Of a stretch of DNA of 34,817 nt, positions 9,948-15,755 are shown in pieces. The number at the start of each line of letters is the position of its first letter. Within the stretch, counting starts at the first letter, position 1. The position numbers were made by a program, and so were the translations under genes. The notes below the pieces were generated by a model. The model saw only the letters and a list, made by a program, of their open reading frames with translations, was not told the origin of the DNA and did no database searches. The DNA comes from Gemmatimonadaceae bacterium (GTDB lineage Bacteria; Gemmatimonadota; Gemmatimonadetes; Gemmatimonadales; Gemmatimonadaceae): assembly GCA_025358925.1 (NCBI GenBank), contig JANYHT010000068.1, forward strand, positions 1 through 34,817, in the 5' to 3' direction.

Positions 9948-10634
9948 ATGACATCGCCTAGCGTAGCCATTTCGCCGCCATTTGCCGGTGCGGCGCGCAT
10001 GACTTTGATTCGTCGAACATACGCACTGCTCACGGTCACGATTCTTTGGACGATCGTGGTGGTGGCCGGTGCTATCGCAACACCCGCAGTTCTCGAGCTC
10101 GCGGTCGCGCACCCGTTCATCATCATGCTGCTTAGCATCGGCGCGTTGCTGGGCACGAATTTAGTGCAAGCGCAGCCGCTCAAGCTTGCGTGGCTTGCGC
10201 TTTTCATCACGTTGATGGGAATATCGCTCGCACCCGTCATGTTGATGTACAACACGCGCGCGCCTGGCGTCATCTCGCAGGCCGCGTTGCTCACCGGCTC
10301 GACGTTCACCGTGCTCACGTTGTATGCGCTATTGAGTCGTCGTGATTTTTCACAACTTGGTGGCTTTCTCACCGTTGGCTTGTGGGTACTGCTCGCCACA
10401 TCGCTGCTGAACATGTTTTTCCATAACGAAACGGCGTCGCTGTGGCTTGCCGGCGTCACGGTGTTCTTGTTTAGCGGCTTCATTGTGTACGACACGAGTA
10501 AGCTGAAAGGCAACCTTGGGCCAAACGATTACATCACCGCCACCGTGTCGCTGTACCTCGATGTGCTGAACCTGTTCATGGCGTTGCTGCGTATTTTGAG
10601 CTTTTTTCAGGGCGGCGGTCGGTCGCGAAACTAG
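9948..10634 (+). CDS. Bax inhibitor-1/YccA family membrane protein
   Basis: A 228-residue inner-membrane protein with about seven hydrophobic helices. The signature lies in the C-terminal half: FIVYDTSKL (near residue 183) followed by TATVSLYLDVLNLFMALLRIL, the conserved 'YDT ... LYLDxxNLF' pattern of the BI-1/TMBIM family. Studied bacterial members include a pH-dependent calcium leak channel (YetJ) and E. coli YccA, which modulates FtsH; which role applies here cannot be read. The length is normal. A Ca2+/H+ antiporter is encoded elsewhere in the window but is not linked to it. The gene is convergent with the 1295-residue fusion gene, and a perfect hairpin sits between them. Confidence 0.92.
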   Translation: MTSPSVAISPPFAGAARMTLIRRTYALLTVTILWTIVVVAGAIATPAVLELAVAHPFIIMLLSIGALLGTNLVQAQPLKLAWLALFITLMGISLAPVMLMYNTRAPGVISQAALLTGSTFTVLTLYALLSRRDFSQLGGFLTVGLWVLLATSLLNMFFHNETASLWLAGVTVFLFSGFIVYDTSKLKGNLGPNDYITATVSLYLDVLNLFMALLRILSFFQGGGRSRN

Positions 10635-10654: not shown

Positions 10655-10689
10655 CACGAAACGCTGACAGTATCTGTCAGCGTTTCGTG
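10655..10689. terminator. Perfect 16-bp hairpin between convergent genes
   Basis: CACGAAACGCTGACAG, loop TAT, then its exact reverse complement. It begins 20 nt after the Bax-inhibitor stop, and its right arm covers the last codons and TGA of the opposing fusion gene. The perfect symmetry would act on both strands; there is no T-run on either side. Confidence 0.6.
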
Positions 10690-13600
10690 CGTGCAGACTC
10701 TGCGTCGGCACCACGGACGAGCGCTCGGGCGATAGCGGCCTGTAATGGGGTGAGATTTGCGAAATTCCCTTTGTCATTCGCGCCAAGATTTTGCTTGTTG
10801 GTGAGCAGCACGACCGAAAGTCCCGCGCTTGGAACGCCAAGGACCCACGTCCCTGTGAAGCCGGTGTGCATGAAGCTCCCGGCGGGCAAATCTGCGGGGT
10901 ACATCCAACCGAGATAATTGTCGTATTGGTCGCGTGTGAGGAATTGTCGCACCACCGTTGGCGCGATGTATTCTCGACCACGCGCACTTCCGTTGGTGCG
11001 CAGTAAGTCCAGTAAGACGCGTAGCTCCGCCGCCGTCGAAAATAATCCAGCGTGTCCAGCCACGCCGCCATTGGCGTACCACGAATTGCCATCGTTCGTT
11101 TCACCATTCAACACGCCTGCTCGCCACCCATTCCACGCCGTGGGGTCACCGCGATAGCGATAGCCGAACGTGGAGTCGTACACCATATGCTTTTCGTATC
11201 CGTTCCCAATCTCGGTCGCGGCGAACGCGGTAAACCCATGCGTTTTGGGAACGAACGTTGTGGAGTGTAAACCGAGCGGCGCGTAGAGCGCGTCGCGCAC
11301 AAAGACGTCCAGCGGCTTGCCGCTCACCTGTTCGACGATGTAACCGAGCAGCATGAAGCCGAGATCGCTGTAGTGCCGACCTTCACCGACCCCCCAACCG
11401 AGTGGCATGTCGCGAATGACCGCGTACGTCTGCGCTTTGTTGGACGCGTGATAGTACAACGGCTGCCATTGAACGAGGCCAGCCGAATGTTGGAGCAGGT
11501 GCCGTACGGTGATGCTGTCGAGATGCGGGCCTCGAAAATCGGTGAGGTAGCGCGACACCGGTGCATCGACATCGATTTGTCCGCGAGTCGCAAGCATCAT
11601 CACAGACATTGTTGTGGCCATCACCTTCGTGACGGAAGCAAGGTCGAACATAGTCGTTGCGTGCATGGGTCGTGGAGTCGGCAAGCGACGCAGCATAGCA
11701 TCGTTTAACTGTGCGTCGCCAAACGCTCGGTTATGCAGCACCACGCCATTGCGCGCCACCACGAAGACCGCGCCGGGAAACTGTGTGCCGAGCGCAGACT
11801 GGATGAGGGAGTCGGCTGTCTGGATTGCCGCAGACATGTACGTTCGGTGTTTTTCAGGTTTTCCCTCCCGCTCATCGTCTGCGACATCCACCGCCAGCGG
11901 AAAGAACAGCGCCCGCTTGACGATCGGATATTTCGCCGTCCAACCTTTCGCGTCAGCCCACAAAATACGGTTGAGTTTTTCGCTCGGCGCCGCATCGGGG
12001 TCACGGAAGTTCATGCGCGCGCTGGCCTGCGCGGCCGTGCGCCGAATCGCAGCATTGGGCCCCGTGATCGCGCCCACTTTGAGGTTCGTTTCGTAGAGCG
12101 ACTGCGTCGGCACGAGCGCGGTGTATGGACGCAAATCCGGTTTCTCTGTCGGACCGATGAAGCTCGCACGCATGTCCGTCGCTACCAAATCAAACATGCT
12201 CAGCGCTGGCAATCCGAGCATGAGTTCGATGGTTTTCACCATGCTTGGCTGACTGTAGAACGTGCTGTCGATGATGCCACGCCTCGCGTACGGACTTGCA
12301 ACGAGCGCGACCGTACGATGCCCATCGATATGATCGACGCCGTTCTGCGCATCATCTTCAACAACGACGATGGCCATGTGCTTCCAGAACGTCGATTTAC
12401 TGAGCGCTTCGACAATTTTGCCGAGCGCGAGATCGTTGTCGGCGACGCAGGCTTTCGGCACGCACCATCCGGCCAACGTGCCTTGCGTGTGGTCGTTCGG
12501 CAAGACGAGGAACGTGAGATGCGGCATTTGCTTCGCGGTTTCCCACTCTTTGAGATGCTCAATGACAATGTCCGCTTTGATCACGTCGGGCACTTCTTGC
12601 GTCCAGCCAGGATATTCGCGAACAAGAATTTTATCGAGACTCGGAATCTCGCTGTGCGTGTTGTACATGTTCTTCAGCTGCGCTCGAAAAAACGCGGCGT
12701 TGTGCGGCAATGCGTCACGATATTGCGCCAACAATCGTGCGCGGACGTTCGGCACTGAATCACTGGGCGCCGGCGCATACTCACCGAAGCTCACGACGCG
12801 TTTGCCTTTCGCTGTCGCCGCTTCCCACAAAAAACCGCCTGCGGAATACGTGAGCGGATCATTGCCTTCGCTTGGGTAGCTGCGGCCGAAATACAGCGGC
12901 CACACCGGATACGTGGTCTCATTCGCCTGCGTGAGCCAATTGTGACCGTCTGCCGAATTCCCTCCTGACGCAAAAAAATGATCGAGCAATACAAACTGTT
13001 CACTCAACGCGTGTGCGTTGGGCGTGACGTCGCGACCATACATCGTAAGACTCGAATCACTCGCCCCTTTGCCGATGTCACCGAGCACTTGATCGTACGT
13101 GCGATTTTCTTTGATGATATAGACGACGTGCTCGATGAGGCTTGCTTCGCCGGGCCGCTCTGGTACCGCGCGCGCTGCAATGTTTAGCCGTGGTGCCAGC
13201 GACGGTGCGTGCTCACCCGTCGCCAGATGGAGACGATTGTTTTGCGCGACACTGGTCGTGTATGCCGACAGTTCCGCATCAGTTGGAATCGCAATCACGT
13301 TCACCGAGCCACGCTCGGCGAAGACATATCGTCCCGACTTACCCGAGGTCTTTCCTGTACCGGCACCCACACCAAAGAGCGTCCCGACCGCGAGCGTTTT
13401 TCCGTCCGCGCTAACGTCGAGACTACCAGGATACCATCCAGTGGGAATGAGACCTTTCAGCGTCGCTAGCGATCCCGATGCGGTTTCGCCGAGTGCATAC
13501 ATGGCGACCGCGTTCACTCCGCCGAGTGCGACGAAAAGCGTTGTTGCATCTGGTGAGAGCGCTACGGCAGTTGGTGCAAGTCCAATCTTTCGTTCGTGAA

Positions 13601-14564
13601 ACGGTGCGATTGCAATTGTGCCGAGCGAGACGTTGCGACGTGTGTCGATGACACTGACCGAATCGGAGTTGCCGTTCGCGACATAGAGACGTCCACGTAA
13701 CTGATCCCACGCAAGCCCTGTTGGATGCAGCCCGACTTGCACGCTATGCGTGACGATGCCGGAATTCAGATCAACCCGCACCACGGTTCCGCGCGCTGCA
13801 ATTCCGCGCGCATCGACACGTACGGGTTCGGCAGCGGGATCGCAGCATTGCGTCGCTTTACGTTCGCCTACTTTGGGTTTCGGGCCGCCGAAAACACTGA
13901 CCCACGCGATTGCACCATCGTTGGCAATGACGGATGCGATCGGGAGCACCCCTAACGCGACGGATCGTAGCAATTTGCCGTTGTCAGCGCTCAGAATCGC
14001 CAGTTTATCGTCGGCGGGAAGCGGCAATACGGCGAGTCGTTCTTGTCCAGCGGTTGCGCTGCGAGCGTAGGATGGGGAGCCCGCCATGAAATCGCCGAGC
14101 GGGCCGGATGACGTCGCGATATTTAACGCGGTATCGCGCGCCGTGCCGTCTCGCGCATTCGCGCTGAACGACACCATTTGTGCGACTGACTTCGCGCGTG
14201 CAAGTGGCGGTCCGCCTGGTGTTCGACTCTTGGCGACGTCTTCTGGCAGCTTGCCTACCGATGCGATTACCGCACGGTGCGTAGCGGGATCAATCGTGAT
14301 ACCGTGCACACCGGGTCGCCCGTTGAATTCCGCGTGTCCACGCACGCGGTTGTCTCGCCAAGCGAGGCGCCACGCACTGCCGGGCACCACTACCCACAAC
14401 TCATCTGCCGACGCTCCGAACCGCACGCCCGCGACACGACCCGTGAATACGCTTTGTACACCGGCGGGTGTGACACGCGCGTTGGTCGCTATGATCCCGG
14501 GATCGTTAATGAGGCGCTGCGGTGCTTGCAGTTGCAGGACGAGCAATAGAGGAAGGAGCATCAC
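10677..14564 (-). CDS. Secreted fusion: beta-propeller + phosphoesterase + serine beta-lactamase-like domain (1295 aa)
   Basis: Three modules lie in one uninterrupted frame. After a hydrophobic N-terminus (MMLLPLLLVLQLQA), residues about 30-450 form a YVTN/NHL-type beta-propeller with repeats such as GLAWDQLRGRLYVANGNSDSVSVID. Residues about 475-820 are a phosphoesterase-family (PF04185-like) domain: VVYIIKENRTYDQVLGD, DHFFASGGNSADGHNW, LPNDHTQG and VVVEDDAQNGVDHIDGHRT supply the expected acidic and histidine metal ligands. After a linker near 890-910, residues about 915-1285 form a class C beta-lactamase/esterase fold with S977-V-T-K980 (SxxK), Y1065-S-D and H1233-T-G in the KTG position. 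Catalytic residues are visible in both enzymatic parts. The domains are usually separate proteins; the fusion is unusual. Substrates are unknown. It is divergent from the PI-PLC-like gene. Confidence 0.88.
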   Translation of the reverse strand: MMLLPLLLVLQLQAPQRLINDPGIIATNARVTPAGVQSVFTGRVAGVRFGASADELWVVVPGSAWRLAWRDNRVRGHAEFNGRPGVHGITIDPATHRAVIASVGKLPEDVAKSRTPGGPPLARAKSVAQMVSFSANARDGTARDTALNIATSSGPLGDFMAGSPSYARSATAGQERLAVLPLPADDKLAILSADNGKLLRSVALGVLPIASVIANDGAIAWVSVFGGPKPKVGERKATQCCDPAAEPVRVDARGIAARGTVVRVDLNSGIVTHSVQVGLHPTGLAWDQLRGRLYVANGNSDSVSVIDTRRNVSLGTIAIAPFHERKIGLAPTAVALSPDATTLFVALGGVNAVAMYALGETASGSLATLKGLIPTGWYPGSLDVSADGKTLAVGTLFGVGAGTGKTSGKSGRYVFAERGSVNVIAIPTDAELSAYTTSVAQNNRLHLATGEHAPSLAPRLNIAARAVPERPGEASLIEHVVYIIKENRTYDQVLGDIGKGASDSSLTMYGRDVTPNAHALSEQFVLLDHFFASGGNSADGHNWLTQANETTYPVWPLYFGRSYPSEGNDPLTYSAGGFLWEAATAKGKRVVSFGEYAPAPSDSVPNVRARLLAQYRDALPHNAAFFRAQLKNMYNTHSEIPSLDKILVREYPGWTQEVPDVIKADIVIEHLKEWETAKQMPHLTFLVLPNDHTQGTLAGWCVPKACVADNDLALGKIVEALSKSTFWKHMAIVVVEDDAQNGVDHIDGHRTVALVASPYARRGIIDSTFYSQPSMVKTIELMLGLPALSMFDLVATDMRASFIGPTEKPDLRPYTALVPTQSLYETNLKVGAITGPNAAIRRTAAQASARMNFRDPDAAPSEKLNRILWADAKGWTAKYPIVKRALFFPLAVDVADDEREGKPEKHRTYMSAAIQTADSLIQSALGTQFPGAVFVVARNGVVLHNRAFGDAQLNDAMLRRLPTPRPMHATTMFDLASVTKVMATTMSVMMLATRGQIDVDAPVSRYLTDFRGPHLDSITVRHLLQHSAGLVQWQPLYYHASNKAQTYAVIRDMPLGWGVGEGRHYSDLGFMLLGYIVEQVSGKPLDVFVRDALYAPLGLHSTTFVPKTHGFTAFAATEIGNGYEKHMVYDSTFGYRYRGDPTAWNGWRAGVLNGETNDGNSWYANGGVAGHAGLFSTAAELRVLLDLLRTNGSARGREYIAPTVVRQFLTRDQYDNYLGWMYPADLPAGSFMHTGFTGTWVLGVPSAGLSVVLLTNKQNLGANDKGNFANLTPLQAAIARALVRGADAESARTKR

Positions 14565-14711
14565 GAGTCCGTTAAGATTTCTGATGGCGTATTAGCGACA
14601 CCATACGTCCAGTATGCGGCACGGGGCAAGCTCGCGCATGCAACGATCTGCGCAAGGATGCAACAATTTCACGACGCTTGCGAAAGCGATGCGCGCGAGG
14701 GAAGCTTCGGC

Positions 14712-15755
14712 ATGAGTGATTGGTGGAGACAACGCGGCGCGGTGACACTCGCACTCACCGTCATCATGGCTGGCGCGACGGCCGCAGGAATGTCGCGACC
14801 GCTGCATCCCCAGTTTGCGCCGGGTGAACGCGTGCTGTTGGATGCGCACAATGCGTATCCGGAGGCCGGACGCTGGGCAGATCGCATTGATCGCGCGCTC
14901 GCAACGGGCGTGCCGCTCGCGATTGAACAGGATTTGTATTGGCATCGTGATACGGCCACCGGTACCTACGAAATCGTTGTTGCACACGACTCGGATGCAA
15001 CGCAGGGTGCGCCAACACTCGAGGCGTATTTTTTCGGGAAAATTCGCCCCTTGATGGAACGCGCACTTCGTGAAAACAAGCGTGATACGTGGCCGTTGAT
15101 TGTGCTGAATCTCGATTTCAAGACCAACGAATTCGCGCATCACGATGCCGTATGGACTTTGCTTGGGAAGTATGAGAAGTGGCTCACCACCGCACCGCGC
15201 ACGCTGACGCCAAATACGCCGGCCGCGCTCTCGGTCGGACCATTGCTCGTGTTCGCTGGCGCTGACAGCGGACAACGTGCGCGGTTCCACGATCTTGTGC
15301 CTGTTGGTGAGCGGCTCCGCGCGTTTGGTGCGATTCCCGTTCCCGCACCCAGGGGATCGACGCGCGAAGCACGCGCCTTCGCGCAGGTACACACGCCGGC
15401 CGCTGCGCTCGTCAAGCCACGCGCCAGCAATTACGCGCGCTGGGTGAATTTTCCGTGGAGCGTCGTTGAAGAGGGAGGACAAAATAGAGCGAGCGTTTGG
15501 ACATCAGCCGACAACGCACGCCTCAGTGCCCTTGTGCGTCGCGCGCACGCGCAAGGACTGTGGATTCGTTATTACACGCTCGATGGGTTTGCACCCGACA
15601 GTGATCGCGGATACACCGCGTCATACAATTTTGGATCGCAGACCATTGCCGCGCAGCGGTGGCGCGCCGCCATCAAGGCGGGCGTGGACTTTGTGGCGAC
15701 TGATCAGTATGAGGCGTTCGCGGAAACGCGAAACACCATGCATTTGTCACGGTAG
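14712..15755 (+). CDS. Secreted PI-PLC/GDPD-like phosphodiesterase superfamily protein
   Basis: A 347-residue exported protein. The start MSDWWRQRGAVTLALTVIMAGATAAG gives a signal or anchor helix; the frame extends 18 codons upstream but without a helix. The mature part opens with VLLDAHNAYPE, then AIEQDLYW, VAHDSDATQGAPTLEAYF and LIVLNLDFKT, the succession of barrel strands with His, Glu/Asp and HD ligands seen in the PI-PLC-like/glycerophosphodiester phosphodiesterase superfamily, including the Aim6-like group. The C-terminal part has RRAHAQGLWIRYYTLDG and GVDFVATDQYEAF, typical of the last strands of the GDPD barrel. A phosphodiester substrate is likely, but the exact one is not determinable. 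GAGGG lies about 12 nt before the ATG. Confidence 0.8.
   Translation: MSDWWRQRGAVTLALTVIMAGATAAGMSRPLHPQFAPGERVLLDAHNAYPEAGRWADRIDRALATGVPLAIEQDLYWHRDTATGTYEIVVAHDSDATQGAPTLEAYFFGKIRPLMERALRENKRDTWPLIVLNLDFKTNEFAHHDAVWTLLGKYEKWLTTAPRTLTPNTPAALSVGPLLVFAGADSGQRARFHDLVPVGERLRAFGAIPVPAPRGSTREARAFAQVHTPAAALVKPRASNYARWVNFPWSVVEEGGQNRASVWTSADNARLSALVRRAHAQGLWIRYYTLDGFAPDSDRGYTASYNFGSQTIAAQRWRAAIKAGVDFVATDQYEAFAETRNTMHLSR

Follow-up and report, generated by a model that had tools for sequence, protein, structure and literature searches.

The window analyzed here is a stretch of 34,817 nucleotides from a Gemmatimonadaceae bacterium (contig 37 in a 72-contig, 4.0-Mb genome that is 96% complete; G000). 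On its minus strand, translation revealed a stop-free single frame at positions 10677 to 14564, which encodes 1,295 amino acids and begins with a GTG codon followed by ATG as codon 2. According to Pfam and to the same fusion in a second genome (G060; see below), the product comprises, in order, a signal sequence, a propeller, a PF04185 phosphoesterase, a charged linker, and a PF00144 serine hydrolase. The signal sequence was recognized as a hydrophobic N terminus (residues 1 to approximately 20; 14505 to 14564) that lacks a lipobox cysteine and is similar to the N termini of orthologues. Elsewhere in the window, type I-E CRISPR-Cas genes, represented by Cas3 and a fragment of Cse1, are cut off by the start of the contig (1 to 3442), and a gene divergent from the fusion gene (14658 to 15755) encodes a secreted 365-amino-acid protein that, by eye, resembles a phosphodiesterase-type barrel. 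The latter protein matched no Pfam or NCBIfam family, and it was not found upstream of the fusion gene in G060.

The propeller, of the seven-bladed YncE/YVTN type, covers residues ~33 to 428 (13281 to 14468). Its Pfam hit to a seven-bladed family was weak and sub-threshold; a profile search matched it to the YVTN/YncE structures 1l0q and 3vgz, and the same residues of an AlphaFold model matched seven-bladed propellers in a fold search (Z of about 35 over ~280 residues). The two halves of the protein were modeled separately because a mixed alignment (A1) misplaced hydrolase rows. When the propeller-phosphoesterase model was used in the fold search, propellers filled the match list, and the phosphoesterase region drew no match of its own.

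Residues 470 to 905 (11850 to 13157) form an AcpA/phospholipase-C-type phosphoesterase region, recognized by Pfam and alignment (PF04185, 45.1 bits against a cut-off of 23). A profile built from 22 phosphoesterase sequences matched AcpA (2d1g, E = 1.8e-10) and several phospholipases C, with E486/N487 and D737/D738, invariant across the 22 sequences, aligned to the catalytic positions of 2d1g. The first pair lies in ENRTYD (residues 486 to 491; 13092 to 13109), whose EN falls, in the alignment, on the metal/catalytic EN of AcpA and phospholipase C; the second lies in EDDAQNG (residues 736 to 742; 12339 to 12359), whose DD aligns with the acidic metal pair of AcpA. Two further motifs are PNDHTQG (residues 689 to 695; 12480 to 12500), with invariant His and Thr, and GNSADGHNW (residues 535 to 543; 12936 to 12962), in which S, D, G, H, and W are invariant. 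The Ser of GNSADGHNW falls in the nucleophile region in a weak alignment to AcpA and phospholipase C and is the candidate nucleophile. By sequence, this part of the protein is assigned to the PF04185 AcpA/phospholipase-C superfamily, for which the catalytic residues of NPC4 (E23, N24, T158, D299, and E300) have been compared with those of AcpA (PMC9837106).

The C-terminal domain (residues 918 to 1265; 10770 to 11813) was identified as a PF00144 serine hydrolase by Pfam (197 bits, cut-off 27) and by a model with a pLDDT of 81.6. It carries SVTK as the SxxK nucleophile motif (residues 977 to 980; 11625 to 11636), YSD as the YxN/D motif (residues 1065 to 1067; 11364 to 11372), and HTG as the KTG equivalent (residues 1233 to 1235; 10860 to 10868). 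These motifs are conserved across the hydrolase clade, with HNG in two relatives and HSG in two others. The model matched beta-lactamase-fold proteins, namely macrolactin acyltransferase homologues, EstB, EstG, and the R61 DD-peptidase. Its best NCBIfam match was PBP4B (NF002968; 180.5 bits, under the equivalog cut-off of 385); at 58.1 bits, under the cut-off of 415, it is not a member of the class C beta-lactamases (NF033085). Sequence and model together point to a PBP4B-like serine hydrolase of PF00144/S12. Beta-lactamase-fold enzymes act on many substrates, and the score lies far below the PBP4B equivalog cut-off; for both reasons, no substrate can be named for this domain. The Escherichia coli PBP4B gene sits in a MurNAc recycling operon (PMC5061867), and no mur or MurNAc recycling genes were recognized near the fusion gene. 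The single frame and the Pfam and profile matches agree with a sequence-only reading of the window, which had described one gene with a propeller, a PF04185-like phosphoesterase, and a beta-lactamase-fold hydrolase: a domain search of the full protein returned PF04185 and PF00144 above their cut-offs beside the weak propeller hit, and every motif named for the two active sites, which had looked intact in that reading, was found in the translation.

To place the fusion among its relatives, we compared it with separately encoded copies of its parts. Besides the two genomes with the fusion, 47 family genomes carry an orthologue of the propeller-phosphoesterase (residues 1 to 905) at 53 to 75% identity, mostly 60 to 75%, a tally that includes fragments at contig ends. 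These unfused proteins stop at about residue 905 to 915, ending in a charged K/R/D/E-rich tail. Again leaving aside the two fused genomes, 21 of the family have a hydrolase orthologue that is not joined to the phosphoesterase (58 to 73% identical to residues 910 to 1295). Unfused hydrolases begin at about residue 910, after their own export signal, and 11 of the 18 hydrolases lacking an N-terminal fusion have a lipobox-like motif. The idea that these families normally occur separately thus holds for the hydrolase, which has its own gene, and fails for the propeller and phosphoesterase, which are one protein in those 47 genomes. Comparison with the unfused relatives places the fusion seam at residues 900 to 910 (11835 to 11867), where the charged phosphoesterase tail passes directly into the mature hydrolase, the junction itself being at about residue 905 to 910 (11835 to 11850). 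Codon composition does not change across this seam, and the 22 bases preceding the internal Met910 contain no Shine-Dalgarno-like sequence, on which ground an internal start there was rejected; the sequence-only reading had likewise described the linker as ordinary coding sequence with no start signal.

No genome among the loci examined had the phosphoesterase and hydrolase genes adjacent to each other, and an origin by merging of neighboring genes was rejected for that reason. The hydrolase tree singled out no donor. The same genome also encodes a second, unfused propeller-phosphoesterase, a paralogue with 40% identity (G000:C66:26415-28160, L001). In G053 and G018 the phosphoesterase paralogue, and in G129 the orthologue, lie in long open reading frames with no recognizable extra C-terminal domain; the surplus sits at the N terminus and has the look of mere open frame.

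Among the 179 family genomes searched, the same in-frame fusion with an identical seam was found in a metagenome-assembled genome (MAG) of a second species in the same genus (G060, JANYFO). Contig C234 of that genome covers residues 2 to 1078 unbroken at 90% identity, and contig C468 encodes residues 1077 to 1295, so that the last 217 residues are on a separate contig; in the named collection, the fusion contigs are JANYFO010000310 and JANYFO010000104. Downstream genes for a Bax1-I family membrane protein (plus strand, 9948 to 10634; context only), a HEAT protein, and an M1 peptidase are syntenic in both genomes. The two fused copies are 88.6% identical in amino acids over 1,294 codons with zero indels, with a dS of 0.72 and a dN/dS of 0.088 overall (propeller, 0.091; residues 471 to 800, 0.070; hydrolase, 0.075 at dS 0.91). 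These ratios indicate that the fused gene is kept by purifying selection on both enzymes. Among 395 genomes of the phylum, a 173-amino-acid query spanning the seam gave full-length matches in G000 and G060 alone, the remaining strong matches ending near residue 905 or starting near residue 910, and no further propeller-PF04185-PF00144 fusion was found in that set. The named genomes closest to this one in the public collection are Gemmatimonadaceae/Gemmatimonadetes MAGs. Other phyla were covered by a single pattern-based scan of 84,980 species, which matched close relatives alone.

Because the fusion was seen only in these two genomes and has a low dN/dS, it appears to be recent, lineage restricted, and under purifying selection. 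The fusion is genuine, and we consider it likely that it serves the co-export and tethering of two scavenging activities rather than a coupled reaction. A complete propeller-phosphoesterase gene would have acquired, in the same frame, the mature portion of a PBP4B-like S12 hydrolase that had been a gene of its own, and in the process the hydrolase would have lost its signal peptide or lipid anchor. A single export step, via the signal sequence of the phosphoesterase, would serve the whole product, with the propeller probably scaffolding the phosphoesterase. The PF04185 domain probably hydrolyzes phosphomonoesters or diesters by AcpA/phospholipase C chemistry in phosphate scavenging, and the SxxK/YSD/HTG domain probably cleaves ester or amide bonds of envelope-derived or scavenged D-amino-acyl/peptide material. 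The most likely effect would be to place an envelope hydrolase that is otherwise lipid anchored on a phosphoesterase that is secreted or periplasmic, presumably to some advantage.

The same hydrolase clade has other partners, each seen in one or two draft genomes. A GH13 alpha-amylase and the hydrolase share one 953-amino-acid frame in G160 (L108:1840-4698); their genes are adjacent on the same strand in G162 and about 2 kb apart in G161, G168, G169, and G164, where, at least in G161 and G169, the gap contains what by eye are PII and ammonium-transporter genes. The hydrolase is joined to a calcineurin-like phosphoesterase in an 851-amino-acid frame in G094 (L095:1489-4041), to a PD40 propeller in G012 (L107:2217-5129), and to a CehA/McbA metallohydrolase in G166 (L089:1339-3588; 89 bits, cut-off 80). 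A second hydrolase-CehA/McbA fusion, in G173 (L110, 6674-8389), is missing the C-terminal part of the hydrolase, including HTG, through either a real deletion or an assembly error. Among more distant hydrolases, GH3 lies N-terminal to PF00144 in the Gemmatimonadota genomes G310 (L073:5023-8682) and G345 (L105:1714-4896), an arrangement of the RmNag3 kind (PMC6987092); Pfam found no GH3 match in the fusion protein described here. Given these partners (GH13, calcineurin-like phosphoesterase, CehA/McbA, and PD40), the clade appears to behave as a fusion-prone module. In G166, G172, and G173, TonB/SusD-type uptake genes or amidohydrolases are found close to the hydrolase gene, neighbors that fit, indirectly, the scavenging of D-amino-acyl or peptide material. 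A wider generalization is doubtful, though worth stating: within Gemmatimonadaceae, the hydrolase may have been joined repeatedly and independently to secreted enzymes of unrelated folds, two unrelated phosphoesterases among them, as a "plug-in" whose reaction would complete the products of many scavenging steps or set them free.

The foremost competitor of co-export and tethering is a coupled bifunctional enzyme acting on one substrate, for example an envelope polymer or lipid that is phosphorylated and also D-alanylated or peptide bearing. It would suit the similar purifying selection on both sites since the fusion, and the G094 protein, from another genus, is a second pairing of this hydrolase clade with a phosphoesterase, albeit an unrelated one. 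However, among the 177 family genomes without the fusion, the phosphoesterase was present in 47, the hydrolase in 21, and both in 4, versus 5.6 expected (Fisher P = 0.6), and where both unfused genes occur they are on different contigs. Co-occurrence at chance level was rejected as evidence for a shared pathway and, with no linkage, argues against an obligatory one. Nor are the partners of the hydrolase specifically phosphoesterases, as its fusions to GH13, CehA/McbA, and PD40 attest. We therefore regard a coupled enzyme as unlikely. The single target suggested for the two activities in the sequence-only reading, for instance a phosphorylated envelope polymer, found no support here, the unfused genes being independently distributed and never adjacent in the loci examined and the hydrolase's partners varied.

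Less probable still is a chance fusion by read-through that is close to neutral, with the hydrolase carried along as a passenger. The confinement of the fusion to one genus and two genomes would be in keeping with it, as would the limited spread of the hydrolase (23/179 family genomes), but the hydrolase part has kept its low dN/dS, its gap-free alignment, and its catalytic motifs at substantial synonymous divergence, and neither fused genome retains a separate orthologous copy. Finally, an assembly or binning artifact joining two genes, which had been raised as an alternative at the outset, was rejected as highly improbable and would require the same error in both assemblies: all of the evidence comes from draft genomes, but the identical in-frame seam recurs in a second, separately assembled species with 87% DNA identity across it, the G060 homologue runs unbroken from the phosphoesterase across the seam into the hydrolase, so that the refutation proposed in the sequence-only reading (no homologue spanning both domains) fails, the flanking synteny is common to both genomes, and codon composition is continuous along the whole gene.

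Co-export and tethering thus remains our preferred account. In the open-access literature searched, we found no description of the propeller-PF04185-PF00144 architecture. The presence of fused and unfused relatives within one family makes the function of tethering directly testable, and the partners in the fusion series of this hydrolase clade could reveal substrates of beta-lactamase-fold hydrolases of this kind, which form a large group that is poorly understood.

Among known systems, the unfused Gemmatimonadaceae propeller-phosphoesterase has the same domains in the same order as the first part of the fusion but lacks the hydrolase. The Francisella acid phosphatase AcpA, phospholipase C, and plant NPC4 share the EN and DD catalytic positions with its phosphoesterase, which scores above the PF04185 cut-off, whereas AcpA and NPC4 have neither the N-terminal propeller nor the C-terminal hydrolase and are of low sequence similarity. 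PBP4B (YfeW, of the E. coli murQ operon) has SxxK, YxD, and HxG motifs like those of the hydrolase domain; the latter differs in its subthreshold score and in being fused. RmNag3 of Rhodothermus marinus, a characterized GH3 beta-N-acetylglucosaminidase with a C-terminal beta-lactamase domain (PMC6987092), differs in that its first enzyme is a GH3 rather than a phosphoesterase and its hydrolase comes from a different clade. Like the fusion protein, however, it carries PF00144 at the C-terminal side of a secreted catalytic domain, and the principle is thus already known (PMC6987092).
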